Below, piece after piece: positions 8,356-24,887 of a DNA stretch of 64,000 bases; the first letter of the stretch is position 1, and every line of letters starts with the position of its first letter. The stretch comes from an uncultured Ruminococcus sp. Its GTDB lineage: Bacteria > Bacillota > Clostridia > Oscillospirales > Ruminococcaceae. The stretch is from positions 1-64,000 of the forward strand of contig CAMZZN010000004.1 in the NCBI GenBank assembly GCA_947345935.1. The letters run 5' to 3'. Position numbers and translations under genes: made by a program. A model generated the notes under the pieces. The model was not told the DNA's origin. It searched no databases and saw only the letters and a program-made list of their open reading frames with translations.

Positions 8356-8559
8356 ATGACGGACAAGGAATTGCATAAGCTGAAAAAGTCGGAGCTTCTT
8401 GAGCTTCTTTTTACAATGCGTAAAGAAATCGACGTTCTTCAGACTGAAAACGGCGATCTGAAGCAAAAGCTCAGCGAAGCCTCTTTAAATCGGGAAATTC
8501 TTGAAAAAATTTTTCATGCTGTATGTCCCAACGAAAAGGAGGGAAGCGATTCTGAATGA
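8356..8559 (+). CDS. Small coiled-coil protein at the head of the fibre operon
   Basis: A 67-residue, highly charged protein predicted from composition as one continuous helix or coiled coil (KLKKSELLELLFTMRKEIDV, then LQTENGDLKQKLSEASLN). It has no signal peptide. Its stop codon overlaps the start of the signal peptidase gene (ATGA), so the two are translationally coupled. I do not recognise the family. Location suggests a helper or regulator for the surface-fibre proteins, perhaps through interaction with the signal peptidase's cytoplasmic N-terminus, but this is only inference. Confidence 0.7.
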   Translation: MTDKELHKLKKSELLELLFTMRKEIDVLQTENGDLKQKLSEASLNREILEKIFHAVCPNEKEGSDSE

Positions 8560-9149
8560 ATATGACCGAAATCGGTAATTCGATAGACAGTCTGCCAAGT
8601 GCAGAACAACTCGAATCAGAACTTAAAAAAATTAAATATCGAAATGATTTTAGGAAAATACTTAGAAGCACTGTATCCTCTCTTCTTGTTGTTGCTGCAA
8701 TAGCGGTTCTGGTGTCCATGCTTTTTCTGCCTGTTTTACGTGTTACAGGTTCAAGCATGACCCCTACTATGCAAAATGACGAACTAATTATATGTTCTAA
8801 AAGAAGCAATTTCAAGCAGGGAGATATAGTCGCTTTTTATTTTAACAACAAGATTCTTCTGAAAAGAGTTATAGGAACTGCCGGAGACTACATAAATATT
8901 ACAAGCGACGGAACTGTTTACGTAAATGGAGATAAGCTTGACGAGCCTTACGTAAGCGAACTTGCCCTTGGAACGTGCGATATTGAAATGCCGTATCAGG
9001 TGCCCGATAACAGAATTTTTGTTATGGGGGATCATCGCTCGGTTTCTATTGACAGCCGCTCCACAACGGTAGGATGTATCGCTGACGAATATGTTATCGG
9101 AAAGGTTATCTTCCGTATATGGCCTTTTGACAGTATCGGAACAGTTTGA
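8556..9149 (+). CDS. Signal peptidase I (dedicated to the fibre operon)
   Basis: A type I signal peptidase (S26) of 197 residues. A cytoplasmic N-terminal ~45 residues precedes one membrane segment (SLLVVAAIAVLVSMLFLPVL). Then come the catalytic Ser in GSSMTPTM and the catalytic Lys in ILLKRVIGTAGD, and the C-terminal box FVMGDHRSVSIDSR. Such enzymes in pilus loci (SipA type) process pilins or help assembly. The N-terminal tail is longer and more charged than in housekeeping versions. It is coupled to the small coiled-coil gene upstream and followed 33 bp later by the giant adhesin, whose long signal-anchor sequence may be its substrate. Confidence 0.93.
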   Translation: MNMTEIGNSIDSLPSAEQLESELKKIKYRNDFRKILRSTVSSLLVVAAIAVLVSMLFLPVLRVTGSSMTPTMQNDELIICSKRSNFKQGDIVAFYFNNKILLKRVIGTAGDYINITSDGTVYVNGDKLDEPYVSELALGTCDIEMPYQVPDNRIFVMGDHRSVSIDSRSTTVGCIADEYVIGKVIFRIWPFDSIGTV

Positions 9150-9182: not shown

Positions 9183-12100
9183 ATGATTTCTTTGAAAGGA
9201 TTACAGACAATAATCCGAAAATACCTTAAAGATCATGAAAAACGGAAGAAATATCTTGCCGTTATCATGACGCTTTCTATCGTCGTTACATTTGCCGTAC
9301 CGATGAGCCTTATTATGCCGGCTGTCAGCATGACACGGGACAATTCTTCAATCGTTGCCGACCAGCTGGCAGCGTACAATGCGGACAGCGGCGGAAAAAT
9401 GCTTACTAATGCTGCCGGAACAAATGGCAATGAAGTAGACGGTATAATTTACAGTCAAGCTGAAATGTCGGATGTGACTCTTCTTGTCGGTGATAATATT
9501 CCGTGGGCAGAAGGTCTTACGGTGGAAGAAGTTATTGAAGAAGCAAAAAATCAATATTTCTTAGGAATAGCACACGATTTCTGTGTTTTTATAGAAAATG
9601 ATTTTGATCCAAAGGCAGCGGACGCCGAGGGAAGGGTTGCTGTTGGCGGAGATATAACTTTTATTCAGTCAGGCAATGAATGGAACTACCAGATAGGTTC
9701 AGGCGATTATGGCGCAGCTAAATCTCTGAATAATACGATCAGTTATGACGGAAATAAAAATTATGCTCATGCGATTGTAGGCGGAAAAATAGTTAACGTT
9801 AATACGATGAGCACAGGCAGTGGAAATATAAAATTCGGCGGTGCAAACAATTATGATGAAACGTCGGGATATCACACTGTAAATCGTGGAAGCGAATATA
9901 GCTATACATTCTTTTATAAGCCGGAAGAAGATCTGTACAAACGTCTGGTTGTTGGTGATATTGACGGTTCATATCATTATGAAGACGGTACAAAAGACAG
10001 CGTTGCATATAGTTCGGATCATGCTCATGATTATCCCGGCGATTGCAACGACGGAAACGGAAATGATCTGAAACATTCGTATCTTGGTCATGTTAATGAG
10101 TTGGCGCAGATCTATAAACAGCCGGAAGGCGGACTTATAGATTTTGCGGATGCGTTTATTTATTTACGTAAACGTTCAAAAGAACTAAGTAAGGTTAAAT
10201 CAACAGGTATAATAAGCGAAAATGGTTCAACTTTAGCTTTAACGTGTCCCGAATGTACTGTTGATGGCGACACAGTTTATTTTAATATTCCTGAATGGAA
10301 ATATGGTGAAGTCAAATTTGAAAATGTGCCGGTAACGACACAGAAAGACGAGCATGGCAATGATAAGATCTACCCTACTTGTAATCTTGTCATAAACTGC
10401 GGCGGAAGTGTATTTAATATCGGAAGCGGCGGAGGCAAAATAACTACCAGTATAAATGGTGAAGAAATCTCTTCAACGGATGATAAGACTAATAATCATC
10501 CTTCATCGGAGAAGATCCTGTATAATTTTTATGAGGCAACAACAGGTACGATTCAGACGAATTTTAACGGAACGATTTTTTCTCCGTTTGCAGACGTTAC
10601 TTCCGGAAAAAAAGCCCCCGATAATACGTCAGAAGCTTCCGGACATCTCTCCGGAGCTTTGATCGCAAAGTCTTTTGAAGGTTATCTTGAATTTGGTTAC
10701 AGACCTTATCGAGGCAACAGTGAAATTATTTCTCTTACATCCGGATATTCAGTTCCGGTTGATAAATTTATTGAAGGAACTGAAAATGGTCTGGCAGGTG
10801 CGTCTTTTTCAGCAATTGATACCGATACAAATGAAACGGTCTTTTCATGGGTAAGTAATGGAGAAACTGTGGATGTTCCGTTTCCTACGGCTATTGATTT
10901 TTCAGGAGATACATTCTACACCACGACAACGACGACTACAACGACTACAACAACAACAACTACTACAGCAACGGAAACAACTGTGACTGAGGATGTTGAA
11001 AATCAGATTCCTGAAGTATCTACAGATGTAACTGATGAAGAAACGCAGCAGTCTGAAAATTATGATGATAACACCGGATCTGACATTCAGAATGAACCTC
11101 AGGCTCAGGCTTATGAAACAGAGTCCGAATATATTACGATAACAAAAAATTATGAAATTTCAGAAGGAAACGCTCCTGAAGGATTCTTTGGAACAGATAA
11201 GAAGTATTACGTTCAGATAACTGAAAGCGTCGATACTTCAAATACGATTTTAAATGGAAGTAAGGGTACTATTCCGACGCACGTTAAAACATCGTTCTTT
11301 ATCAGAGACGAAAATGACAAAGAAATTGCTAAATGGTATTTTGATATATCCGATGTGCATGAAGGTGATAAAGTCAGTGAAAGAACTATAAAAATTCTTG
11401 ATAAAGATTATACTGAAGTTGAAACTTTCACATTAAAAATCGCTAAAAACAAAATTATTGAAATTTCTTCTGACGGTGGAGAGAGTTTTACTGATTTAAG
11501 CCAGGAACAGGTTATTGAAACTGTAAAGGGCAGATATTACTTTGATCCGGATGTAATAATGTTAATGCCGCTCCCTGAAAGAAATCTTGAATTTGAAAAC
11601 AAACATGGTTTACTTTTTAAGAAAGTCGATGATTCAGGAAAGGATGTAACAGACGCAGCTATTCAGCTCCTGGATGAGAATAAAGATCCAATTGCAGATA
11701 CAAGTATATGGAATTGGGATAAATCTAAAAACTCTTTCCTGATTGATGCGGAAAAGCTTACTCCGGGGAAAACTTATATATTCCATGAGTCAGAAACGCC
11801 GGTTAAATACGAAACTGCTAAGGATGTATACTTTAGTCTGAAAGATGACAGGATCATCGTTGAGTATTGGATTGACGGAGAGACTGAACGTAAATTTATT
11901 GATCTTACTGAGACGCAGTCTATCAATATGATTGATGTCAGAAAGTACGGCGCAGTTCCTTCTCTTAAAAAGGTTCATAAGAAGCTTGTGGACGGAGCGG
12001 TAACTGAAGAGCTTGAGATTCTGCCGGGTGCAACAATTGGACTTTTTGCTCAGAATGGTGATAAGATTTGTGAATGGACGGATTTCACAGGCGAAGAGAC

Positions 12101-15100
12101 TTCAATGAAAGAAGCGCTGGCAGACTGCGGTTCGACGAAATATACTGAAAACGGTTATCTGAAACCCGGCGTGTACTATCTGTATGAAACAAAGATACCA
12201 ACTTGTACGAATGAAGAACTCCACGCTGACCCGGGAAAGATGTATTTTACCGTTACTGATGACTTTAAAATCGTTGAGGGGTATAGTTCTGTTATTGGAT
12301 TAAAAACAGATAATCCCACTGGCAGCCAGGTTTACTTTAAACCTGAAAATGTTGACGTTATAGAAAATGTTAATTATTTTCACGTTATAGCAAGCGCTGA
12401 TATTCAGCAAATGTATGATGTAGGAAGCCTTAGCGGTGAAATAAATCGTGGTTCTGATTTTGAGCATACTTTTGATGTGCCTGAAAATTGGGATATTACA
12501 AAAAACTCCATACAATTTCAGAATTGGAGTGGCGGTTTAACCGTATCATATCTTGAAATCAGAACATCTGACGGAATAACATATGTATATGGAACAAATC
12601 CTGACTCGCCAGCAGGCGGCAGTGAAGCATCCGGCGACCATACAAGCAAATATTTGGAAGTCCAGAATGAATCGCTTCTCCAGGTGGAAAACATCCGACA
12701 GGGCGACACTAAGGATATTACAGTAAATAAGTCATGGGCAGCTGACGATGATTTCAAGAATCTCAGACAAGAAGTGACATATGTACTGTACAGTACAACG
12801 GAAAATCTGACGGATTTATCTCCTGAAAGTCTTAAAAAGCTCATTGAAGATAATAAAGCAGATAGAGTTACAGTTCCAGAGAAATATACGACAGACGACG
12901 GTACGGAAAAGGATCAATCGACTGAATTAAAGCTTTTCGAAAGCAATAATTGGTCTCAGACGATTCATGGTCTTCCTACAAAGTCGAATGAAACAGACGT
13001 AAACGGTAAAAAGTTGAATCTGAATTATTTCATTATTGAAAACGAAGTCACCGGTTATATACCGTCGTATACAATTACAGGCGATATGCTTACGGTTACC
13101 AATACGCTTGAGACAATTAGTCTGACGGCTAAGAAAGTGTGGGAAAACGGTACTGATGTACCAAAGCCGGATCTGTTGAAATTACAGCTTCAGATGAAGA
13201 ATGGTGATGACTGGGAAAATCTCAGGACAGTAATTTTGACGGGCGACAGCTGGGAGGCGTTGGTTGAAGGACTTCCGAAAGGAAAATCCTACAGGATTGT
13301 GGAAAATGTGGTTCCGAATGGCTGGAAGTGTATGTCATTGAATAACGCCAGCGCCCCCACAGATACAAGCCAGGAAGAGTATAATAGTGTTCTTTCGATC
13401 ACAAATGAACCCAAGGTCGCAAGTCTTATTGTGCAAAAGTTCTGGAATTCTGTTGATGATGAAAAATCAAGACCGGATAAAGTCAGGGTAAAAATTTATA
13501 GGACTACTAAAGTTCCTGCAACGAAAGTTACGTATCCTGTAGATCAGGCAGATAACGAGGTTCTGACAGATTATGCAAGACTTCTGCAATACTCGCTTTT
13601 CTTCTATGATGCAAATATGTGCGGAGATGATGTAGCAAATACAAGTAATTATCAGTGGCGTGGTAATTGCCATACAGAAGATGATGTGCCAGGTGGTTTT
13701 CATGATGCAGGCGATCATGTAATGTTTGGTTTGCCAGGCGGATTTTCTGCAATGAATTTGAGTTGGAGCTTATATGAATTCCGTGATCAGTATGACGATT
13801 TAGGACAGACAGATCATGCAAAGCTTATTCTTGATCATTATGCAGACTATTTCAGAAAAAGCATAAAAACAGAGAATGGCACAGTGCAATTTATGTATCA
13901 AAAAGGCGACGGTAACATTGACCACGCTTATTGGGGCATACCTGAAACTCAGCCGTCACGAAGCGATCAGAGTTATTGGGTAAGTGATGCCGGAAGTGAT
14001 ATTGCTGGAGAATATGCGGCAGCACTGGCATTAAATTATCTGAACTTTGGCAATGAAGAGGATCTGCAAAAGGCTATGGAACTCTATGCATTTGCTGATT
14101 CAGTTAAAGCAAAAGTTATAGGAAAAACAGAAGATCCGACAACGCCGAATCAGTATGATTTTTACATAAGTAAAGATTATAAAGATGATATGGCAATGGC
14201 GGCAGTATGGCTTTCAGTTGCATGTGATAGAGCTGGTAATGGAAAAAAAGATTACTATAAGGATGAGGCAGTAAAGTATCTGGATGGCAATTTTGAATCC
14301 TGGGAGGGATATCATTATAATGAAGTTCAGAAAGGCGCTTATTTAGCGGCTTCACATTATCTTGGTATTGACGATAATAAGAAGAACGACTACAGAGGCA
14401 AAGGCAAAATTGATATCAATGATTATTACTATGCGCAGGATGAATGGGGCTTTTCAAGATATGTCAACGGTTATTTAACAATTGCATTGATTGACGCTAA
14501 ATACAACGGTCAGAACAAAGATGCCCAGAATGTTCAGCGTGCTGCAAAACAAATGCAGATCATGCTTGGCGACAATACTTGGGGAGCAGATGGCAATCCA
14601 CTTTGTCTTGTAACAGGCTTCTCAAAATATTCACCTCAGAGACCACATTTCCGTGCAAGCAGCGGTGAAACTTTCGATATGAAAGTAAAAGACGATACAA
14701 CGATCATTGACGGATACGATGATAAATATACGTTAATCGGTGGAATTATCGGAGGACCTAAGGCTGACGGAACATATAAAAATAATGCCGGCAGTTATGT
14801 AAAGTATGATGATAAGCGTTCAGAATATGCGGTAAATGAGGTCGCTTCTGATTACAATTCCGTTCTTGCGAGCGCAGCAGCCGGATTATACTATTTCTTC
14901 GGAACAGGCAATACGTATGATATACCTGGTGTAAAAAATTCTTATAATGGAAAACCGAAAAACGAAGTGAGTCAGCCGCAGCTGCAAAGTATCAGCGAGC
15001 TTCCTATGCTTCTGATGACTAAGGTTAAGTCGGTCAGGGCAGCGGAGAAGTATTATTCGTACAAAGAAGTTGGAACAGTATCAGGATCTAAAACATTTCC

Positions 15101-17522
15101 ATTATCATACGAAAATATTACAAAAATTGAATTAGATTATCAATTTAATGGCGGCGATGGCGGCGCTAACCTTACCTTTAATGATTGGGAGATACAAAAT
15201 AAAGAATCAGTGGGTAACAACACATATGTTTACAAATTTGATTCTCCTAAAAATATCAGAAACTTCTGCGTTCAAGGAATATGGAATACAGAATCTATTA
15301 CTATTTCAGAAATCCGCTTTTACTATGACGCAGGCAGTTCATTCACCGTAACCCCATCATCTGCAACTCTTATTAAAGGAGACAGCATTGATCTCACTGC
15401 ATCAGGACACAGCGGAGATATTAGTTGGAGTTCCGGCGAGACAAATGTTGCAACAGTGGACGAAAACGGTAAAGTTACAGCAGTTGGCACTGGAAAAACA
15501 ACTATAACCGGAATAGATGATGAGGAAAAAGAAGGTACTTGTGAAATTACAGTTGAAAACTTTAAAATCACAGAGAGTCCGGATTCGGTGAATGAAAATA
15601 GTGAGTTTATGATCAAAACTAATGCATCCGTCAGCGAATGGAATTTTGATGATTCAAAGATCGAGTATGTTTCTTCAAATGGCAATGAACATAAATTCAA
15701 AGCAAAAGATGGTGCAAGTGGCAACGCAGAAATAACTGCAAATCATGGTACTTCAAGCGATATTGTAAATATCACTATCAACCAGATAGCGTTTACAATC
15801 ACTCCAAGCACTTGCGATCTCCCGATTAACGAAGAAGTAACGCTTACTGCAAATGCTCCGGCTGAATGGACAGCTGATACTGGAAAGGTTCAGATAATTT
15901 CTACAAGTAATGACAAAAAATCTTGTGTAGTTAAAGCTTTAAACGGAGCAGGCAGTTCTGCAACAATTACTGCAACACGAACTGCGGATACTTTTAAGTC
16001 TGCTTCGGCTACGATCAATATCAAGCCGAAAAATCAGTGGTATACTTTAGAAGGATTCTCAGTCAGCGGTGATAGTGGACAGAGCAAAAACTATAAAGGT
16101 AATTGGGAAAACATTATTAAAATTGAATTCATTGATAAAAATGGAAACAGTCTTGCCGATGGAGGAAATGTTTGTGATAGTAGTTTCGGATGTTCTTTTA
16201 ACTATGTTGCAAATGGCGAAACGAAAGAACAGCACGACTGGATTGATAACGATAATATGAGAACTCTTTTACGTACTCTTTCAACAACTTTATTTAATGA
16301 ACCAGTAACTGTTACTGAAATAAATTTTAATAGTGTTAAAACATGGTCTAATGAATTCAATATCAAAGAAATCCGGCTGCACTGTGTTGATGTTCCAACA
16401 TACACCATAACTTCCGACAAAACCGAACTTCTTCCCGGAGAAACGGCAGCGCTTACGGTAACGGACGCAGACGGAAACAAGATCAACGGTATTAATTGGA
16501 CTATTCCTGAGGGATGCGGTACAATTACACCGAATAACGACGGTACTTATACCTATACAGCCGGAGGTCATTTTGGCGAAAAAGAATTCACTGGAGAGGC
16601 AAACGGTATCAAAGGTAAAATTAAATTCACAACAAAATCAATTACAGCCAATTCGCTCATCCGGCTTCGTACCGGCGGTACTGCGCAGATCACATTAAGC
16701 GATACCGCAGAGGCAGCGATAACTTACCTCAACAATGATGATACTGTTGCGGCAATTGACGAAAACGGTAATGTAACGGCAAGAGTCGTTGGAGAAGCAA
16801 ATGTCGTTATCGTTTGCAACGGAATCGAAACGGATTGTCAGGTAAACGTTCAGGTTCTCGATGCGCTGACGAGCAGCAATCCTATTGTATCAATCAAACC
16901 TGGCAGCACGGTTCAGCTTACTGTTGATAACGCTATAGGCACTGTGACATGGGGTATGCCGCAAGGTTCGGATACATCCATTGCAACGGTTGACTCCAAT
17001 ACAGGCGTTGTGAACGGTTTGAAAAACGGAACTGTGACCGTTGTTGCAGTTGATACTTATGACAATTCAACCTATGAATTCACAGTTAGTGTCAAAGATA
17101 TGGCGGCAGTTGTTACTCTTCCCGAGGGCAGCGAACCGGTAGGAGATTTTTACGACGTATATGCTAAGGATGATTGGAAGTTATCAATTCCTAATCTTCC
17201 TATTACCGACGAAAACGGACGCCCCTATTATTATTACATTGTCGAGGTTGACGAAAATGGCAATCCGATAACTGACGACAATACGCTCAAGAGTAACGGT
17301 TCTGTTTACATTCCTGTCGATTATGACAATGGAAAAGCTCTGGATGAAACAAACCCAACAGAGCTGAGCGTTGAAAACAAAAAAATCGGCGAATCTATGG
17401 GAGAGCTTCCTTCTGCCGGCGGCGAGGGAACGGCAAAATACTACGTAACGGGCATTATCATAATGTGCTCAGCCGCCGCTTATTATCTTATCAGACGACG
17501 CAGAAGACGTGTCGCAGAATAA
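9183..17522 (+). CDS. Giant sortase-anchored adhesin with a GH9 cellulase inserted in a Cna_B domain
   Basis: 2,779 residues. In order: signal-anchor (~22-50); choice-of-anchor A-type adhesin domain (~125-520, FCVFIENDFDP, RVAVGGDITF); Thr tract (~579-596); several Cna_B/SpaA-like domains (~800-1410); first half of a last Cna_B (LIVQKFWNS, Lys1419, VRVKIYRTT); GH9 catalytic domain (~1455-1910) with DAGD at 1508-1511, His1822 and acid Glu1886 in NEVASDYN; two similar unassigned beta modules around residues 1950-2050 and 2280-2400; BIg2-like Ig domains; second half of the Cna_B (~2650-2735, WKLSIPNLP, Glu2688, Asn2732); LPSAG at 2742, a membrane helix and an Arg-rich tail. It probably displays a beta-glucan/cellulose hydrolase on the cell surface or a fibre tip. 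The start is ATG 9183, but TTG 9192 has better spacing (9-11 bases) from AAGGAGG. Confidence 0.92.
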   Translation: MISLKGLQTIIRKYLKDHEKRKKYLAVIMTLSIVVTFAVPMSLIMPAVSMTRDNSSIVADQLAAYNADSGGKMLTNAAGTNGNEVDGIIYSQAEMSDVTLLVGDNIPWAEGLTVEEVIEEAKNQYFLGIAHDFCVFIENDFDPKAADAEGRVAVGGDITFIQSGNEWNYQIGSGDYGAAKSLNNTISYDGNKNYAHAIVGGKIVNVNTMSTGSGNIKFGGANNYDETSGYHTVNRGSEYSYTFFYKPEEDLYKRLVVGDIDGSYHYEDGTKDSVAYSSDHAHDYPGDCNDGNGNDLKHSYLGHVNELAQIYKQPEGGLIDFADAFIYLRKRSKELSKVKSTGIISENGSTLALTCPECTVDGDTVYFNIPEWKYGEVKFENVPVTTQKDEHGNDKIYPTCNLVINCGGSVFNIGSGGGKITTSINGEEISSTDDKTNNHPSSEKILYNFYEATTGTIQTNFNGTIFSPFADVTSGKKAPDNTSEASGHLSGALIAKSFEGYLEFGYRPYRGNSEIISLTSGYSVPVDKFIEGTENGLAGASFSAIDTDTNETVFSWVSNGETVDVPFPTAIDFSGDTFYTTTTTTTTTTTTTTTTATETTVTEDVENQIPEVSTDVTDEETQQSENYDDNTGSDIQNEPQAQAYETESEYITITKNYEISEGNAPEGFFGTDKKYYVQITESVDTSNTILNGSKGTIPTHVKTSFFIRDENDKEIAKWYFDISDVHEGDKVSERTIKILDKDYTEVETFTLKIAKNKIIEISSDGGESFTDLSQEQVIETVKGRYYFDPDVIMLMPLPERNLEFENKHGLLFKKVDDSGKDVTDAAIQLLDENKDPIADTSIWNWDKSKNSFLIDAEKLTPGKTYIFHESETPVKYETAKDVYFSLKDDRIIVEYWIDGETERKFIDLTETQSINMIDVRKYGAVPSLKKVHKKLVDGAVTEELEILPGATIGLFAQNGDKICEWTDFTGEETSMKEALADCGSTKYTENGYLKPGVYYLYETKIPTCTNEELHADPGKMYFTVTDDFKIVEGYSSVIGLKTDNPTGSQVYFKPENVDVIENVNYFHVIASADIQQMYDVGSLSGEINRGSDFEHTFDVPENWDITKNSIQFQNWSGGLTVSYLEIRTSDGITYVYGTNPDSPAGGSEASGDHTSKYLEVQNESLLQVENIRQGDTKDITVNKSWAADDDFKNLRQEVTYVLYSTTENLTDLSPESLKKLIEDNKADRVTVPEKYTTDDGTEKDQSTELKLFESNNWSQTIHGLPTKSNETDVNGKKLNLNYFIIENEVTGYIPSYTITGDMLTVTNTLETISLTAKKVWENGTDVPKPDLLKLQLQMKNGDDWENLRTVILTGDSWEALVEGLPKGKSYRIVENVVPNGWKCMSLNNASAPTDTSQEEYNSVLSITNEPKVASLIVQKFWNSVDDEKSRPDKVRVKIYRTTKVPATKVTYPVDQADNEVLTDYARLLQYSLFFYDANMCGDDVANTSNYQWRGNCHTEDDVPGGFHDAGDHVMFGLPGGFSAMNLSWSLYEFRDQYDDLGQTDHAKLILDHYADYFRKSIKTENGTVQFMYQKGDGNIDHAYWGIPETQPSRSDQSYWVSDAGSDIAGEYAAALALNYLNFGNEEDLQKAMELYAFADSVKAKVIGKTEDPTTPNQYDFYISKDYKDDMAMAAVWLSVACDRAGNGKKDYYKDEAVKYLDGNFESWEGYHYNEVQKGAYLAASHYLGIDDNKKNDYRGKGKIDINDYYYAQDEWGFSRYVNGYLTIALIDAKYNGQNKDAQNVQRAAKQMQIMLGDNTWGADGNPLCLVTGFSKYSPQRPHFRASSGETFDMKVKDDTTIIDGYDDKYTLIGGIIGGPKADGTYKNNAGSYVKYDDKRSEYAVNEVASDYNSVLASAAAGLYYFFGTGNTYDIPGVKNSYNGKPKNEVSQPQLQSISELPMLLMTKVKSVRAAEKYYSYKEVGTVSGSKTFPLSYENITKIELDYQFNGGDGGANLTFNDWEIQNKESVGNNTYVYKFDSPKNIRNFCVQGIWNTESITISEIRFYYDAGSSFTVTPSSATLIKGDSIDLTASGHSGDISWSSGETNVATVDENGKVTAVGTGKTTITGIDDEEKEGTCEITVENFKITESPDSVNENSEFMIKTNASVSEWNFDDSKIEYVSSNGNEHKFKAKDGASGNAEITANHGTSSDIVNITINQIAFTITPSTCDLPINEEVTLTANAPAEWTADTGKVQIISTSNDKKSCVVKALNGAGSSATITATRTADTFKSASATINIKPKNQWYTLEGFSVSGDSGQSKNYKGNWENIIKIEFIDKNGNSLADGGNVCDSSFGCSFNYVANGETKEQHDWIDNDNMRTLLRTLSTTLFNEPVTVTEINFNSVKTWSNEFNIKEIRLHCVDVPTYTITSDKTELLPGETAALTVTDADGNKINGINWTIPEGCGTITPNNDGTYTYTAGGHFGEKEFTGEANGIKGKIKFTTKSITANSLIRLRTGGTAQITLSDTAEAAITYLNNDDTVAAIDENGNVTARVVGEANVVIVCNGIETDCQVNVQVLDALTSSNPIVSIKPGSTVQLTVDNAIGTVTWGMPQGSDTSIATVDSNTGVVNGLKNGTVTVVAVDTYDNSTYEFTVSVKDMAAVVTLPEGSEPVGDFYDVYAKDDWKLSIPNLPITDENGRPYYYYIVEVDENGNPITDDNTLKSNGSVYIPVDYDNGKALDETNPTELSVENKKIGESMGELPSAGGEGTAKYYVTGIIIMCSAAAYYLIRRRRRRVAE

Positions 17523-17617: not shown

Positions 17618-19306
17618 ATGAAAAACTTTAAGAGATTTACAGCAGCAGTCGCTGCAACATTAATGGCAGCTTCACTTTCTATTCCTATGGCTATGAACGT
17701 TTCGGCAGAAAAAGATATAATTAAATTTACTGGCGAGGTGGGTGAGAATCATCAATACTTTGCATTTAAAATTTTCGGAGGCGAAGTTAAAACAATAGAT
17801 GAAGGTGGTGTACAAAAGACCGAGCTTACAAATATTGTTTGGGCAAATGAGTCAAAATCAGCAGATTTCCTTGATGCTTTAAAGTCAGATACATCAATTG
17901 GAAGTGATTTTTCAGACTGTACTAATGCTGCCGAAGTAGCCGCTGTGCTTGGTACTTATAAGAATAAAAGTCCTGAAGCAAAGGCGTTTGCTAAGTTCGT
18001 AGCTGCAAATAAAGATAAAGTTCAAGGTATAAATGCAATGGCAGCTCCTATTATTGAGGCTAAGTCGGACGGATATTATGTAATAATTGAATCAAGTTTA
18101 ATCAATGGAGACGCTTCTATTCCAACAGACTCTGCTATGACTTCATACCTCCTTGCTGTATATGATGCAAGTGAAGGTGCAGAGCTTGAAGTAAAATCAG
18201 CAATACCGACGGTTATCAAGAAGATCAAAGAAAACTCTACGTTAGATGAAAGCGTTGGTACAACAGATAATAGAATGAGCGATTATGTTATTCCGACAGA
18301 TTACAATGATACTGCCGATTTCAGTATAGGCGATACGGTTCCTTTCCAGATCGTTGGTTCAATGCCGTCCAATATCGACGAGTATGCAAGTTATAAATAT
18401 ATTTTCCACGATACACTTGATTCACAGTTTACACTTGCAGATGAATTTGGAACAAGTGATGTAACAATTACTATTGACGGAACTGAGATTACCTCTGGTT
18501 ATACTGTTACAGCTGTAGACAACGAAATTACAATTACGTTTGCAGACATCAAGAAAGTTGCTACGCTTACAGCAAATTCAAAGGTTGTAGTTGATTATTC
18601 AGCTACATTGAGCAATGCCGCAGTTATCGGACAGAATGGTCAGAAAAACGCCGTATATCTTGAATATTCAAACAATCCTAATGTTGGTGGCGAAGGAGAA
18701 ACAGATACTACAAGTAAAACTCCGAAGGATGAAGTAATTGCATTTACATACGAGCTTGATGTAACAAAGATTGATGGTGCAAATGAAGATTTAAAACTTG
18801 AAGGCGCTAAGTTTAAGCTTCAGGCTACTGATGGTGAACACAAAGATAAGTGGGTAATAGTGGATAAAAATGGTAAGGTTTTAGGTTGGGTTGATACAGA
18901 AGCAGACGGCTCGGAACTTACTTCAAATGATGACGGTATATTTAAGGTAATTGGTCTGGATAAGGGAAACTACAGCTTTAAAGAAATAGACCCTCCCAAG
19001 GGTTATAATATTTTAGAAGATCCGGTTGCGTTTGATATCACTGCAACCATAGGGAATTCTCAGAATGACAATGAAATTACAGGTGATGAGTTATCCTATC
19101 TTCGTCTTACTGTGAATAATCAACAAAAGCCTGGTTCTGTAGGTACAGGTACAGTTGGAATGAGCATTGAGAATAACTCTGGTTCCACTCTCCCCAGCAC
19201 CGGAGGTATGGGTACTACTCTGTTCTACCTCGGCGGCGGCGCTATGGTAGCCGTAGCAGGAATCGTTCTTATTGCAAAGAAGAGAATGAACAAAAATGCA
19301 GAGTAA
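17618..19306 (+). CDS. Major pilin, SpaA type, LPSTG-anchored
   Basis: 562 residues, classic backbone pilin. Signal peptide (FTAAVAATLMAASLSIPMAM). A candidate pilin-motif lysine region lies near residues 195-205 (AIPTVIKKIKENS). An isopeptide-forming fimbrial D2-like domain follows, then a C-terminal Cna_B with an E-box-like YSFKEIDPPKGYNIL. The sorting signal LPSTGG is at 525, followed by a membrane helix and the KKRMNKNAE tail. Its lysine would be joined to the LPST Thr of the next subunit by the class C sortase encoded next. A strong AAGGAG site precedes the ATG. Hairpins flank the gene on both sides, which suits the most abundant subunit of the operon. Confidence 0.93.
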   Translation: MKNFKRFTAAVAATLMAASLSIPMAMNVSAEKDIIKFTGEVGENHQYFAFKIFGGEVKTIDEGGVQKTELTNIVWANESKSADFLDALKSDTSIGSDFSDCTNAAEVAAVLGTYKNKSPEAKAFAKFVAANKDKVQGINAMAAPIIEAKSDGYYVIIESSLINGDASIPTDSAMTSYLLAVYDASEGAELEVKSAIPTVIKKIKENSTLDESVGTTDNRMSDYVIPTDYNDTADFSIGDTVPFQIVGSMPSNIDEYASYKYIFHDTLDSQFTLADEFGTSDVTITIDGTEITSGYTVTAVDNEITITFADIKKVATLTANSKVVVDYSATLSNAAVIGQNGQKNAVYLEYSNNPNVGGEGETDTTSKTPKDEVIAFTYELDVTKIDGANEDLKLEGAKFKLQATDGEHKDKWVIVDKNGKVLGWVDTEADGSELTSNDDGIFKVIGLDKGNYSFKEIDPPKGYNILEDPVAFDITATIGNSQNDNEITGDELSYLRLTVNNQQKPGSVGTGTVGMSIENNSGSTLPSTGGMGTTLFYLGGGAMVAVAGIVLIAKKRMNKNAE

Positions 19307-19392: not shown

Positions 19393-20277
19393 ATGAGAAA
19401 AAAATCAGGCAGACTTTCAACGATTATTTTAATCATAATACTACTCGTGGGGCTCTACGTGATGCTGTATCCGATAATAAGCAACTGGTGGAACGAGAGG
19501 GTTCAGACCAAAGTAATTGCAAACTATAAAGAGACTGTCGCCGAAATGGACAGCGGCAATATCGAAAAGATTATAAACGAAGCTCACGAATACAACAGGC
19601 AGCTTGTCGGGCTGTATGCTCCTTTTATAAATTATGACAAGATCCCCGGTTATGACGATATACTTAACGTTTCCGGTACGGGAATAATGGGCTATATCAC
19701 GATTCCTGTTATCCGTGCCGAATATCCCATATATCACGGAACAAGTGAGGAGGTTCTCAACATTGCCGCAGGACATTTGCAGGGCTCGTCAATACCGGTC
19801 GGAGGAGCAGATACGCACGCTGTCATATCAGCGCACAGGGGATTGCCCTCTGCCAAGCTTTTTACTGATCTTGACAAAATGGTTGAGGGAGATACTTTTA
19901 CGATAACGATTCTCGATCAGGTCTATACCTACGAGGTAGAAAAAATTCTTACTGTTAAGCCGGAGGATGTAGATAAACTGGCAATAATTCCCGACAAGGA
20001 TTATGTAACGCTGATGACCTGCACTCCGTACGGTGTAAATACTCACCGTCTGCTGCTGCGTTCACGCAGGATAGAAACTGTTTATGACGAAACAGAGGTG
20101 AAAGTCAAGGTAAATCCGGACGCATTACAGGTTGATCCTATGCTTGTTGTGCCGGTTATTTTCACGGTATTTGTTATCATACTGATATTTATCTGGATCA
20201 TTGGCGGTAAAAGGAACAGGACAAAAACGCTGGACTATACAAAAATCAAAATAAAGAACGAAGAGGATGGTGATTGA
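19393..20277 (+). CDS. Class C (pilus-polymerising) sortase
   Basis: 294 residues. N-terminal membrane helix (STIILIIILLVGLYVMLYPI), a sortase beta-barrel with catalytic His in HAVISAHRGLPSAKLF, Cys in TLMTCTPYGVNTHR and Arg in LLLRSRR, and a C-terminal membrane helix (VIFTVFVIILIFIWIIGG). The two membrane segments and the TPYGVNTHRL motif are typical of class C enzymes, which polymerise pilins through lysine isopeptide bonds. Substrates should be the LPSTG pilin upstream and probably the LPSAG and LPQTG partners. An AGGGAGG site precedes the ATG. The downstream minor pilin ORF overlaps its 3' end. Confidence 0.94.
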   Translation: MRKKSGRLSTIILIIILLVGLYVMLYPIISNWWNERVQTKVIANYKETVAEMDSGNIEKIINEAHEYNRQLVGLYAPFINYDKIPGYDDILNVSGTGIMGYITIPVIRAEYPIYHGTSEEVLNIAAGHLQGSSIPVGGADTHAVISAHRGLPSAKLFTDLDKMVEGDTFTITILDQVYTYEVEKILTVKPEDVDKLAIIPDKDYVTLMTCTPYGVNTHRLLLRSRRIETVYDETEVKVKVNPDALQVDPMLVVPVIFTVFVIILIFIWIIGGKRNRTKTLDYTKIKIKNEEDGD

Positions 20278-21319
20278 TGTGCGGGTAAAAAAATATGATC
20301 GTGCAGCGGCATTTATAATATGTGTTATTACGTCTGTTTTGATAATGTTCAGCGGAACGAATATTGGAGTCCGTGCGGAAAAAACGGGTTCGGTATCTCT
20401 CGTGTGTGAAAGCGGAGGTGAAAAGCTTTCCGGAATGACGTGGCGGCTTTATTATGCGGGAAAGCGCAGCGGAAATACGATTGTTCCTGATGGAGAATTT
20501 TCCGGATATAAAGTGACTTTTGGCGATCTGTCGGCAGACGCACTGATGTCGGCGGCTTCAACTCTTGAAAGTTACGCCGTTCTTGACGGTATTGTTCCGA
20601 ATGCTGAGGGAGTCACCGACTCTAACGGAAAGATCAGGTTTGATGATCTCGAAAAGGGAATTTATCTTGTCTGCGGAGATAAGCTGACTGTCGGAAAGGG
20701 AACTTATACTCCTGCTCCGATGTTTGTGGAAGTCTCTGAAAGCGATCCGGATATGACTGCATTTCCTAAGTTCACATATCAGGATGTACTCGGAGCTGAC
20801 ACCGAGAGATTCAGGCTCATGAAGATCTGGGAAAACGACGAGAAGTTTCCGCAGGACAGGGCTGTTTCAATAAGCGTTGAGATATATTGTAATTCGGTTC
20901 TCAAAGAAACAGTAACTCTTAGTGAAGAAAATAGCTGGACATACGACTGGACGGCAAAAACCGGCGATACATGGCGTGTTATAGAAGTAGATATACCGGA
21001 AAATTACACTGTAACATACCGTTCAAATGAAAATCAGTTTGTAATTGTTAATACCCATGAGAACGTTAAGCCGATCGTAACAACGACCACAACGGCTATA
21101 ACAACATCGTCCGGAACAACTACCGGTTCTTCTGTCACAGGTACAACGACTGCCGCAGATGTCCGGACAACAGTGACTACGGTGCGCCAGACGGAATCAA
21201 AGCTTCCCCAGACCGGGCAGCTCTGGTGGCCGGTACCTATACTTGCTCTTGGCGGAATAATTTTTGTAGGAATCGGATGCCGTTTGATCGCAGGAAGCAA
21301 AAAGGAAGATGATCGATGA
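20267..21319 (+). CDS. Minor/basal pilin with Thr-rich linker and LPQTG anchor
   Basis: About 350 residues. Signal peptide (AFIICVITSVLIMFSGTNI), two Cna_B-like domains (~35-165, ending in GIYLVCGD-type strands, and ~170-255 with LMKIWENDEKFPQ, WTYDWTAKTGD and FVIVNTHE), a Thr-rich wall-spanning linker (~260-300), LPQTG at 313 with Pro-Trp-rich flank, a membrane helix and a basic tail. The linker and C-terminal position suggest a basal subunit that attaches the fibre to peptidoglycan. The start is uncertain: ATG 20267 overlaps the sortase gene by 11 bases, and in-frame GTG 20279 has the better-placed GAGG/GGTGAT. The stop overlaps the next sortase start (ATGA). Confidence 0.88.
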   Translation: MVIDVRVKKYDRAAAFIICVITSVLIMFSGTNIGVRAEKTGSVSLVCESGGEKLSGMTWRLYYAGKRSGNTIVPDGEFSGYKVTFGDLSADALMSAASTLESYAVLDGIVPNAEGVTDSNGKIRFDDLEKGIYLVCGDKLTVGKGTYTPAPMFVEVSESDPDMTAFPKFTYQDVLGADTERFRLMKIWENDEKFPQDRAVSISVEIYCNSVLKETVTLSEENSWTYDWTAKTGDTWRVIEVDIPENYTVTYRSNENQFVIVNTHENVKPIVTTTTTAITTSSGTTTGSSVTGTTTAADVRTTVTTVRQTESKLPQTGQLWWPVPILALGGIIFVGIGCRLIAGSKKEDDR

Positions 21320-21966
21320 AAAGAACACATGGAATGTGTTGCATAGCTATCGGGGCAATGCTGCTTATTGCGGCGTTGTCCCTTGTTATCTGTAATTCCC
21401 GTATGAATAAGGAAGCCGAGGAAAATGCGGAACGAGTGCTTACTGCTATGAAGGAAAAAATTCCTGAGCAGACAAAGTCACAGCCTGTCACTGAGTTTGC
21501 CTCAGACGATCTTTTTCATGAATACAAACTCCCTGAAACAACGGAGAAAATTACTGAAGAACCTGTTATTGAAATTGAAAATAATGATTATATCGGCTAT
21601 ATTTCGCTTCCTGCGTTGGGAATCGAGCTTCCCGTTATGAGCAGTTGGAGTTACGATAATCTTAAAATATCGCCATGCCGATATAAGGGCAGCGCTGCCG
21701 GCGGCGATCTTATAATTGCCGCACATAATTATAGTTCTCACTTTGGACGTCTGGATGAGTTCCAGGGCGGCGAAGAGATCATTTTTATTTCCGCAGACGG
21801 AACAGTCTTGAATTATGAGGTTATACAGACGGAGAATATTTCCGGAAAAGATGTTGAAGCAATGGAGTTCGGTTCAGCTGACGAATGGGATCTGACTCTT
21901 TTTACTTGTACTCTCAGCGGTCAGAGCCGTGTGACTGTAAGAGCCGTAATAAAAGAAAGCGAATAA
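21316..21966 (+). CDS. Second sortase of the fibre operon (class undecided)
   Basis: 216 residues. N-terminal membrane helix (IAIGAMLLIAALSLVICNS), a charged stalk, then a short sortase barrel: GYISLPALGIELPVM, catalytic His in LIIAAHNYSSHFG, Cys in LTLFTCTLSGQSRVTVRA with the final Arg. The absence of a C-terminal helix and the TLFTC motif separate it from class C. It is likely to act as the anchoring enzyme that moves the finished fibre to lipid II. It is translationally coupled to the minor pilin gene and is the last gene before a strong terminator. Confidence 0.9.
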   Translation: MKRTHGMCCIAIGAMLLIAALSLVICNSRMNKEAEENAERVLTAMKEKIPEQTKSQPVTEFASDDLFHEYKLPETTEKITEEPVIEIENNDYIGYISLPALGIELPVMSSWSYDNLKISPCRYKGSAAGGDLIIAAHNYSSHFGRLDEFQGGEEIIFISADGTVLNYEVIQTENISGKDVEAMEFGSADEWDLTLFTCTLSGQSRVTVRAVIKESE

Positions 21967-22100: not shown

Positions 22101-24887
22101 TTAATTTACAGATATTAATAGTTTTTTCATAAGACAAAGATCATACGAGTCAATAATACCGTCATTGCAGAGATCGCCGGCTTTCCAGTCTGCAAGTTTT
22201 GTACCGGGAATGTCAAGTATATATTTCTGCAATGCGACAATATCGGCAATATTGAATTTACCATTTGCATCGACATCTCCGATTACCGTCCAGGATGCTT
22301 TAGGTGCGGAGGGTTCGAGAATAAATTTCTGACCGTCTCCTCCCCAGTATTCCCACTGATTGATGTTAGCGCCGTCTTCTGTGCTTATTTCAAATACGTC
22401 AGCGCATGATTTTCCATACGAAGCAGCAGTGAGGATTGAATATGATCCGTCTTTATTGCATTGGAGCATAAACTTCTGTGAACTGTCATTTTTCAGTTCT
22501 GACAATATCATATTTGCTCCATTTTCAGCTGAATTACTCTCAACGGTAAGAGCCTTTCCGTTTGCGTTCAGAATCGTATATGTGCCATCGTTTTGCTTTA
22601 TGATCGTCCAGTTTTGTATGCTGCTTTGTACAGCATTGCCGCTTATATCCGCCATAAACAGTCCGCTGTTGAGATTTTTTATCGTATAAGTTCCGCTGGG
22701 GACGGCAGGATGTACGGGTTCAATTTTCCAGAGTTGACAATCGTAGTTATTATATGCGAACTGATTGATATTTCCACCGTTTTCTGTAGACCATTCAAAT
22801 ACGTCGAGACCGCTTTTTCCGCCTGAACATTTTGAAACAATACCGTAATAATTTCCTTTTTTCACAAGCTTGAAAAGCTGATTGTCTGTTCCGGTATATG
22901 TTTGGAGCTCAACGTTTGTTCCGTCGTCGGCAGTGTTTGAAGCGACTGCGATACATTTTGATTCGTTGCCAAGTGAAGCTATTCTGAAATACTCATTGTC
23001 AACGGCGATAAGTCTCCACTGCTGCGCCCATGATTTGTTGAAATCCCATTGGTGGATATTTGTGCCGTCATCAAGCCTTCCGTCAGGGAGGTCGAGAGAA
23101 AGATTGCTGTTTTTATTTGTTATGTAATAGGAAATACCGCTTATAAGATCAGTACCGCTGATTTTTATGGACTTGCTGTTTTCACCTGCCGTATCGGGAG
23201 ACATAACAAGTTCCGCATTATTGTTTGTATAGTCGGTCAGACCTTGTCTTTCCTTTCCGGTAAATTCCTTTGTCTGAGCGCCCCAGACGGTTTGGTTATT
23301 ATTTCCAACTGCTGTAAACGACATTACCTTAGTGCCCTTTTCGTTTTCTGCGGCAATGAAATATCCGCTGTAACGCTGATTTCCAATTGTAATTGTTGCA
23401 GCTGCATTATCAGCAGCCTGTTCCCATTTTCCTGAAACCGCTCCGGAAATTGTATGATCTGCGTTAAGCTTGATATTTTGATAATTAATAATGTTTCCAT
23501 CAGTTGTATTTCCGTGATTTATATATTCGTAATCGCCTATAATGTCAGCTTCGTCATATCCGCCTGATGCAATGTGATCGCCGCTATATTCAAAAGGTGT
23601 TACGACCGGCCAACCGTCCTCGTTGAAGAACATTTCATGAACACGGACTTCATGGAACTCAAAACCGTCGTCAAATCTTGCATGATAGAAAAGGTACCAT
23701 TTTCCGTCGTCATCACACAGAACGGAATTATGTCCGCACGCCATATAAGCTTTGTCAAGACTGCTGAATTTGTAGTTTCCCATAACTTTAAGTCCAGTGG
23801 AGTCAAGATTGGTATTTGGTTCCATAACAGCCTTTCTTCCTGCCGCATCGTAAAAAGGGCCCGTAGGGCTTTCGGAACGAAAAACACGCATATTATATCC
23901 GCCTTCGGAAACAAGACCGCCGTAAGTTATCCAAAGGTAGTAATATCCCGTGTCAGAATTATATTCAATAAACGGTCCTTCTCCTGATTTATGATATCCG
24001 CCCGAAAGCTTAGTACCGAAGTAACTGTCCACAATGCGTCCGTCGGCAGTCGTTCCACTTTTAGGGTGAATGCATTTGCCTGTTGTTGGATCTATTTCCA
24101 GTGTGAAGATTCCACCTGACCATGAACCGTAGGTCATATACATTTTACCGCTTGTATCATAATAAATAGTAGGATCGATAGCATTTGGGAAAAGCTGATT
24201 GTTAAAGTTTTTGTTGTTAAACCAATCCTTGTTGTAGGAAACCTTTCCATCAGCTATTAACTCGTCAATATTTGTTGACGTATACTTGCGGTTGACTTTT
24301 TTCCGACCGTCTTTACTGGCAGCATAGCTGTCGTTTTCAGTAAATCCGGAATAAATAAGCGTATCTGCAAAAGTAAACGGTCCAGCAGGATTTTTCGATA
24401 CTGCGTAACAAATTACAGAACGCATGTAAGTTGAAGTCGTACAGAAGTACATAACATAAGCGCCCTTTGTTCCGTCTGTATTAACGTATTCGGGATTCCA
24501 TATAACGTCAGGCGCCCATACTGCAAATCCGCTGGAATTTGGATTCAGCTTGTCACAGTCTTCAAGGTTTTCTCCTGCCCAGTCAAATGCTTTTTTAAGG
24601 TTCTGCGACAAGTCACCGAATTCGACGTTATTTGGTGTAGTATACCCATTTGTGAATCGTGTCCAGTTCTGGAGATCGTTTGATCTTGCTGCGTCGATAT
24701 GCGAGCCCCAGACGTAATATGTACCGTCTTTCGCTTTGATTATAGAAGGATCGTGAACGGATACACGTGCTTTTCCGGAGGCTGCGTCGGTGTTGATATT
24801 ATATGAAATATCTGCGTTGAATGCCGAAAACAGCATTGCTCCTGAGAGGGCAAGAGCCGCTGTTTTCCGGAAGGAATTTTTTTTCAT
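22101..24887 (-). CDS. Dockerin-bearing GH43 arabinanase-like enzyme with ricin-type CBM regions
   Basis: 928 residues, secreted. Signal peptide; GH43 five-blade propeller at ~40-430 with catalytic candidates Asp46 (HDPSI), Asp238 (NAIDPT) and Glu303 (SGEGPF); a beta-barrel accessory domain (~440-560) as in large endo-1,5-alpha-L-arabinanases; two ricin-B/CBM13-like regions (~575-715 and ~720-860, with NQFAYNNYDCQLWKI- and INQWEYWGGDGQKF-type repeats); and a C-terminal type I dockerin (DVDANGKFNIADIVALQKYI, then DLCNDGIIDSYDLCLMKKLL). Expected role: cutting arabinan or arabinose side chains of pectin while docked on a cohesin scaffold. No scaffoldin is in the window. It has its own strong promoter. 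Exact GH43 specificity is inferred. Confidence 0.92.
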   Translation of the reverse strand: MKKNSFRKTAALALSGAMLFSAFNADISYNINTDAASGKARVSVHDPSIIKAKDGTYYVWGSHIDAARSNDLQNWTRFTNGYTTPNNVEFGDLSQNLKKAFDWAGENLEDCDKLNPNSSGFAVWAPDVIWNPEYVNTDGTKGAYVMYFCTTSTYMRSVICYAVSKNPAGPFTFADTLIYSGFTENDSYAASKDGRKKVNRKYTSTNIDELIADGKVSYNKDWFNNKNFNNQLFPNAIDPTIYYDTSGKMYMTYGSWSGGIFTLEIDPTTGKCIHPKSGTTADGRIVDSYFGTKLSGGYHKSGEGPFIEYNSDTGYYYLWITYGGLVSEGGYNMRVFRSESPTGPFYDAAGRKAVMEPNTNLDSTGLKVMGNYKFSSLDKAYMACGHNSVLCDDDGKWYLFYHARFDDGFEFHEVRVHEMFFNEDGWPVVTPFEYSGDHIASGGYDEADIIGDYEYINHGNTTDGNIINYQNIKLNADHTISGAVSGKWEQAADNAAATITIGNQRYSGYFIAAENEKGTKVMSFTAVGNNNQTVWGAQTKEFTGKERQGLTDYTNNNAELVMSPDTAGENSKSIKISGTDLISGISYYITNKNSNLSLDLPDGRLDDGTNIHQWDFNKSWAQQWRLIAVDNEYFRIASLGNESKCIAVASNTADDGTNVELQTYTGTDNQLFKLVKKGNYYGIVSKCSGGKSGLDVFEWSTENGGNINQFAYNNYDCQLWKIEPVHPAVPSGTYTIKNLNSGLFMADISGNAVQSSIQNWTIIKQNDGTYTILNANGKALTVESNSAENGANMILSELKNDSSQKFMLQCNKDGSYSILTAASYGKSCADVFEISTEDGANINQWEYWGGDGQKFILEPSAPKASWTVIGDVDANGKFNIADIVALQKYILDIPGTKLADWKAGDLCNDGIIDSYDLCLMKKLLISVN

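Follow-up and report, generated by a model that had tools for sequence, protein, structure and literature searches.

How does a cellulase come to lie inside a stalk domain of a sortase-anchored surface protein, and what would such an arrangement do for the cell? The question is raised by a stretch of 64,000 nucleotides from an uncultured Ruminococcus sp. (the window), in which a first-pass annotation had described one continuous frame with the first half of a Cna_B domain, a family 9 glycoside hydrolase (GH9), the matching second half and an LPSAG motif. The frame is present as described (9183-17522, 2779 aa), and the residues singled out in it, K1419, D1508 and D1511 of the DAGD motif, H1822, E1886, E2688, N2732 and LPSAG, were all found in their places. 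On the sequences analyzed here, the likely reading is that a GH9 cellulase is held inside the last Cna_B domain of a pilus adhesin, most likely the tip subunit, where it would form an isopeptide-closed loop beside the line of force with the Cna_B domain as its socket. The adhesin gene has the following parts:

9183-17522, + strand: giant sortase-anchored adhesin of 2779 aa, ATG start, single frame (ORF call)
9561-10697, + strand: N-terminal adhesive domain, pAdhesive_15 / choice-of-anchor A, residues 127-505 (Pfam, NCBIfam)
12717-13364, + strand: pair of Cna_B-like stalk domains that lack a large insert and serve as internal control, about residues 1179-1394
13422-13502, + strand: first half of the split Cna_B domain, residues 1414-1440, with Lys1419 (profile match)
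17148-17393, + strand: second half of the split Cna_B domain, residues 2656-2737, with Glu2688 and Asn2732 (profile match)
17406-17519, + strand: LPSAG sorting signal, membrane segment and basic tail, residues 2742-2779 (sequence)

The N-terminal domain matches pAdhesive_15, an ice-binding-like adhesive domain, at residues 127-505 (Pfam, E 3.4e-34), and choice-of-anchor A at residues 132-511 (NCBIfam). At the other end of the protein the sorting signal is complete, with LPSAG, a hydrophobic stretch and a basic tail. The best Cna_B stretch according to Pfam, residues 1238-1308, lies ahead of the GH9 block, and the two Cna_B-like domains without a large insert adjoin the split domain on its N-terminal side. 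When compared with the Cna_B profile (cut-off 22.3 bits), residues 1413-1443 reach 16.6 bits at profile positions 3-28 and residues 2656-2737 reach 20.1 bits at positions 38-72; both scores are below the cut-off, and the two matches cover complementary parts of the profile with no overlap. Joined, the halves of the window score 38.7 bits over positions 3-72 of 87, which supports the proposal that they are one Cna_B domain. All eight joined frames (the window, six GH9-type relatives and one SGNH-type) scored above the cut-off, with 27.3-47.6 bits. A profile built from 12 joined frames, nine of GH9 type and three from genome G026, found the collagen adhesin B repeats (PDB 1d2p, 9e-17) with the Lys, both Trp and the Glu aligned, and more weakly SpaC (6m48, 6.5e-4), whose Glu is unaligned; the Asn of the joined frames falls outside the aligned stretch in both matches. 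The gap of the joined frames in the PDB alignment places the insertion point in the loop that follows the second strand. It is here that the anchor-proximal Cna_B domain appears to be split, around a block of about 1,220 residues.

In order to determine how widespread the layout is, a profile of the first half plus GH9 was searched in 125 genomes of the genus, one per species, with at most 12 candidates scored per genome, and the resulting counts are lower bounds. Adhesin-type matches come from giant frames and begin at the first or second position of the profile; ordinary GH9s, among the matches listed, begin at position 22 or later. The same split layout was found in at least 23 loci of at least 22 of the 125 genomes, including a permuted case in genome G045, with the recurrent order of a K.W...LYR-like half, GH9, a W...LP..YYYxxE...N half and the anchor. 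This recurrence rules out an assembly join, and the layout is no single oddity of the window. The first half lies no more than about 65 residues ahead of GH9 in each of the 22 other loci. A contig edge cuts four of the 23 loci before the second half (L034, L094, L097 and L105); Lys, Glu and Asn are kept in all 19 loci that have both halves (read by eye) and are invariant in an 18-row alignment, and the cargo between the halves of these complete loci measures approximately 590-1,330 residues. The carriers include the cultured R. flavefaciens FD-1 (L035, identical with L122) and MAGs, several of them from guts or faeces of herbivores (roe deer, sheep, horse, goat, water deer and rabbit). Contigs often end within giant adhesin genes (L029/L030, L034, L094, L097, L103 and L105), so that loci are undercounted. 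Thirteen of 18 compared segments occur letter for letter in named records; these are apparently the same assemblies and so provide no independent evidence. One such stretch, L108 (JAMPAJ010000001.1), is titled Alistipes sp. and equals that of L096, whose genome is placed in the genus of the window; the title looks wrong. Outside the genus, 371 genomes at class level yielded no GH9 in a Cna_B domain but the window's own (E 1e-20; strand half or frame longer than 1,100 aa; best 3-4 candidates per genome), and 394 genomes at order level yielded genus members only (strict cut-off of 1e-60; best 3-4 candidates per genome).

The adhesin gene belongs to a pilus operon, in which it is the second gene and is accompanied by:

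8556-9149, + strand: signal peptidase I, first gene of the operon (Pfam Peptidase_S26, NCBIfam sigpep_I_bact)
17618-19306, + strand: major pilin, LPSTG, GramPos_pilinBB (Pfam/NCBIfam)
19393-20277, + strand: class C (pilus) sortase (266.5 bits, cut-off 160)
20267-21319, + strand: minor pilin, LPQTG, with a Cna_B domain without insert (Pfam)
21316-21966, + strand: second sortase (Pfam, NCBIfam)

The order is thus signal peptidase I, adhesin, LPSTG pilin, class C sortase, LPQTG pilin and second sortase. Signal peptidase I stands beside the adhesin in 14 of 22 relatives, and several of the remainder are contig ends. A promoter scan gave 39 sites, compared with 38.1 in shuffled sequences. Next to the operon there is a cellulosome-type neighbour on the - strand (22101-24887), a GH43 with ricin-type lectin repeats and a dockerin. 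Alternatively, a housekeeping sortase could attach the adhesin straight to the wall, in which case it would not be a pilus subunit at all. The LPSAG ending differs from the LPSTG of the pilin, and the genome of the window has eight sortase matches. Furthermore, neither pilin nor sortase was found within about 8 kb downstream of L104 (G061) and L107 (G098), although each of their genomes carries a class C sortase elsewhere, on a different contig. Against this, a pilin and a class C sortase adjoin the adhesin in 14 of the 17 loci with DNA downstream, the window included; six of the 23 loci (L034, L094, L097, L098, L099 and L105) end at or just after the gene. In known pilus operons, moreover, the tip pilin is often encoded by the largest structural gene. 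The third exception, L100 (G123), lacks both pilin and sortase over the 2.3 kb that remain before the contig ends, and is in two frames with the adhesive domain out of frame with the rest. Because some loci have no pilus operon beside them, we give direct wall anchoring somewhat more weight and the main reading somewhat less; even so, we regard direct anchoring as unlikely, albeit the most serious of the alternatives. Pilus membership is supported by the gene neighbourhood at the loci with an operon and not for every member of the group, L100, L104 and L107 being the exceptions. A class C sortase like that of the window (E 1e-70) occurs in 88 of the 125 genomes of the genus. Genome G026 has four class C sortase matches on four contigs (C27, C8, C66 and C17), which suggests several pilus operons.

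The block between the two halves of the split domain contains:

13572-14876, + strand: GH9 catalytic domain, residues 1464-1898, with D1508, D1511, H1822 and E1886 (Pfam PF00759)
15051-15332, + strand: beta-sandwich-like module m1, residues 1957-2050, a possible carbohydrate-binding module (sequence)
15339-15542, + strand: Big_2 domain, residues 2053-2120, the best of three stretches (Pfam)
16026-16394, + strand: second m1-type module, residues 2282-2404 (sequence)

The GH9 domain that had been noted in the insert is present, matching positions 1-443 of 444 of PF00759 (237 bits, E 5.8e-70), but it is not the whole insert, which also holds Big_2 domains and the two beta-sandwich-like modules. 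The nearest solved structures are the GH9 endoglucanases 2yik and Cel9M 1ia6. The m1-type module is repeated and carries the pattern NxTKIExD...W...EIRLYY; it could be a new carbohydrate-binding module, although carbohydrate binding is here a guess from sequence. A nine-row profile of these modules gave chance-level matches only in the PDB (best E 0.56), and the search of Pfam gave no convincing family (best 0.024, in one member).

As for catalysis, D1508, D1511 and E1886 align with the catalytic positions of 16 free GH9s, as the first-pass annotation had anticipated, and the second histidine is Phe in the window. The acid Glu position is readable in 22 of the 23 pilus GH9s, and Asp, Asp and Glu are all kept in 21 of these 22, that is, in the window and in 20 of the 21 others. 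The exception, L033 (G020), has lost the catalytic Glu and the His and is likely a pseudo-enzyme or binder; L107 has Gln at the His position. These two members raise the possibility that the module in general serves mainly as a cellulose-binding adhesin, either a pseudo-enzyme or a slow enzyme, and not as a hydrolase. The branches of most pilus GH9s are also longer than most free ones, and the genome of the window has 11 GH9 matches besides the adhesin's own (12 in total). The retention of both Asp and Glu in nearly all readable members argues against a mere binder, as does the dN/dS of 0.15-0.18 in three close pairs (0.079/0.515 in L031-L093); selection on the pilus GH9s is purifying in these pairs. 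We therefore judge a binding role improbable and a hydrolase the better description of the cargo. Taken with the operon and the conserved split frame, the catalytic residues support the original suggestion that the protein is a frame for displaying a cellulase on the surface or on a pilus.

The 23 pilus GH9s form one side of a branch when analyzed with 16 free GH9s (98/99) and with 25 (100/98), so that a single origin of the insertion is the simplest reading of the trees. One member has an unusual topology. In R. flavefaciens FD-1 (L035 / L122:14288-17296; genome G045) the Cna_B frame holds a circularly permuted GH9, which starts at GGYHDAGDH directly after the Cna_B strand. Model positions 37-454 correspond to residues 1460-1840 (Pfam matches profile positions 43-443 on this main part), and the normal first segment, model positions 1-39, comes afterwards in the same frame, at residues 1881-1919. 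An independent insertion of this GH9 is unsupported: it lies inside the pilus clade, also when 25 free GH9s are included, and the permutation therefore probably arose in place. Among the best matches listed from the 125 genomes of the genus, only that of FD-1 spans the junction; a long match in G019 was considered as a second permuted GH9 and turned out to be an ordinary one. The accessible text of the FD-1 genome paper lists 12 GH9 modules and makes no mention of such a sortase-anchored GH9 adhesin (PMC2721979).

The history of the cargo differs from that of the frame; this conflict and the permutation both go beyond what had been claimed for the locus. The window falls with L095, L096 and L030 in the tree of the adhesin N-terminus (100/99), and the same grouping is found for the class C sortase, SrtC (92/98). 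In the GH9 tree it groups with L031, L093, L094, L032 and L033 (100/98). The frame grouping is rejected by the GH9 data (AU p 0.0037), and the GH9 grouping of the window is rejected by the adhesin N-terminus (p 6e-85) and by SrtC (p 9e-61), the tested groups having been named after the trees had been seen. The dS between the window and L095 is lowest in the second half plus anchor (0.37), higher in the N-terminus (1.26) and approximately 2.5 (saturated) in GH9. Between the window and L093, identity is 73-76% in the first 100 GH9 residues and 44-52% in the stretch just before. Distances of the first half among 18 loci track those of the distant second half (partial r 0.42, p 0.0003) more closely than those of the adjacent GH9 (0.12, p 0.11); the correlation between halves is partly a whole-frame signal, as the domain preceding the split one also correlates with the second half (r 0.75). 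These sequence comparisons suggest that the GH9 cargo was probably exchanged between lineages under a conserved frame. Fast divergence of GH9 could in principle produce such a conflict without any exchange, since the branches of the pilus GH9s are long, above all that of the window (0.98-1.01), and the groups were chosen with the trees in view. This explanation appears quite improbable given that the rejections are reciprocal, that identity to L093 rises sharply at the start of GH9, and that dS differs several-fold along one gene. A second candidate for a GH9-only exchange, the pair L032 and L101, was dropped: the two are sisters in SrtC (100/99), are identical at the very C-terminus and have their sisterhood rejected by GH9 (p 7e-43), but the adhesin N-terminus does not join them and the break exceeds GH9.

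GH9 is also not the only hydrolase found in a Cna_B loop. Nine further adhesin frames (L040-L048) have no GH9 match, and six of them (L040-L044 and L047) stand beside a pilin and a class C sortase. An SGNH/GDSL hydrolase with GDS, GTN and DxxH motifs follows a Cna_B strand half in seven loci of four genomes: L046, L047, L048 and L200 in G026, L199 in G103, L045 in G002 and L041 in G054. In L047 the SGNH enzyme is in the anchor-proximal Cna_B domain, with another module ahead of it; in the other six loci the Cna_B domain lies further in, so that the loop is equivalent and the domain different. Downstream of the enzyme, the second half could be recognised by eye in L046, L047, L048, L199 and L200 (five of the seven loci); in L045 it was matched by profile (positions 2-337 of 339), and in L041 it comes from the pattern alone. 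Further Cna_B loops contain Big_2 and other modules outside assigned families. A rough regular-expression count of loop lengths, in which some halves are wrongly paired, gave 117 loops, 69 of them with 60 residues or fewer and 46 with more than 100. That the flanks of GH9 are not one domain, the first half being a decayed Cna_B remnant, the second a separate anchor-proximal domain and GH9 simply lying between stalk domains, is conceivable with other Cna_B-like domains in tandem in the same protein and with the docking of the halves read from sequence, but it is very improbable, as the halves match complementary, non-overlapping parts of the profile, an unrelated enzyme interrupts the equivalent loop in the SGNH loci, and Lys, Glu and Asn, needless in a remnant, are kept in every locus with both halves.

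With the two halves taken as one interrupted domain, the mechanism that we infer extends from docking and bond formation to force bypass, cellulase activity, pilus assembly and a tip position. After secretion the two Cna_B halves would dock, and Lys1419 in the first strand would form an isopeptide bond with Asn2732 in the last strand with the help of Glu2688, positions as in CnaB domains. In such folds the bond joins the adjacent first and last strands and is assisted by Glu, according to the accessible text of a survey of CnaA and CnaB domains (PMC12617251). As Lys is contributed by the first half and both Glu and Asn by the second, bond formation would turn the chain between Lys1419 and Asn2732 into a covalent loop and let pull bypass the cargo; closure of the enzyme in this way is probable and fits the conservation of the three residues. 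Pull would enter at the first strand, cross the bond into the last strand and continue to the anchor, with the enzyme off this line of force. Joined to the pilin by the class C sortase, the adhesin would most likely be the tip subunit, and the cell may use the N-terminal adhesive domain to grip and meanwhile cut cellulose at the point of contact. The Cna_B loop would act as a socket, with GH9 probably swapped between lineages and SGNH hydrolases in the equivalent loop of other adhesins. We lean, with less assurance than for the window itself, towards a broader reading in which the Cna_B domain of Ruminococcus pili is a natural enzyme socket: unrelated hydrolases (GH9 and SGNH) would be accommodated in one loop, ringed by an isopeptide bond and kept off the load path, with cargo exchanged and, in FD-1, once permuted in place.

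Several known systems share parts of this design. A large domain in the loop between the bond-forming residues of an isopeptide-type fold is described for RrgA and Spy0125 in the accessible text of the same survey (PMC12617251). The parallel with RrgA that had been drawn for this locus is loose, as the RrgA frame is called CnaA-like there; Spy0125, CnaB-like with a large insert, is the closer case. The inserts labelled in that survey, as far as its accessible text goes, comprise CnaB, vWFA and thioester domains and are described as mostly of the isopeptide or adhesion type (PMC12617251), whereas here they are hydrolases of two unrelated families. In the engineered SpyRing, SnoopRing and PilinRing an enzyme placed between reactive isopeptide parts likewise becomes a closed loop, and the authors of SpyRing stated in 2016, in the part of the text available, that nature was not known to make enzymes resilient by cyclisation of this kind (PMC4748275). 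In contrast, the Ruminococcus frame is apparently natural and conserved, with a predicted bond. Flagellinolysin is also an enzyme inserted in a surface-filament subunit, but according to the available excerpt it is a metallopeptidase in the hypervariable region of flagellin, with no isopeptide frame, pilus or cellulase (PMC5595980). Fibrillar enzymes are long stalked surface proteins with a catalytic domain; there, as the excerpt describes them, the enzyme replaces the adhesive domain and is not inside a stalk domain (PMC9210967). Ruminococcal cellulosomes contain GH9s (GH9-CBM3c, CBM4-GH9 and dockerin forms) of the same family in the same bacteria, but these are held by dockerins and the ScaE anchor, whereas the GH9 of the window belongs to an adhesin anchored by sortase; the accessible parts of these papers do not mention such an adhesin (PMC2721979, PMC4081043). 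Among the matches listed in a search of titles and abstract openings of the open-access literature, none described a cellulase or other hydrolase located within a CnaB domain or within a sortase pilin. Insertion into CnaB is thus already known, and an enzyme as the inserted cargo was not found described in the open-access literature searched.

If the proposed reading is correct, isopeptide-cyclised enzymes occur naturally in at least 22 of 125 species genomes of one genus, including fibre-degrading gut bacteria, and the presence of the cultured R. flavefaciens FD-1 among the carriers makes the idea directly testable. The frames would offer ready-made pairs of Lys strand and catcher of about 110 residues, taking approximately 590-1,330 residues of cargo with the reactive residues kept. 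In this sense they would be the natural equivalent of SpyRing. As load-bearing holders of surface enzymes they would also be an alternative to the cellulosome, giving these bacteria a further means to keep enzymes on fibre under flow.
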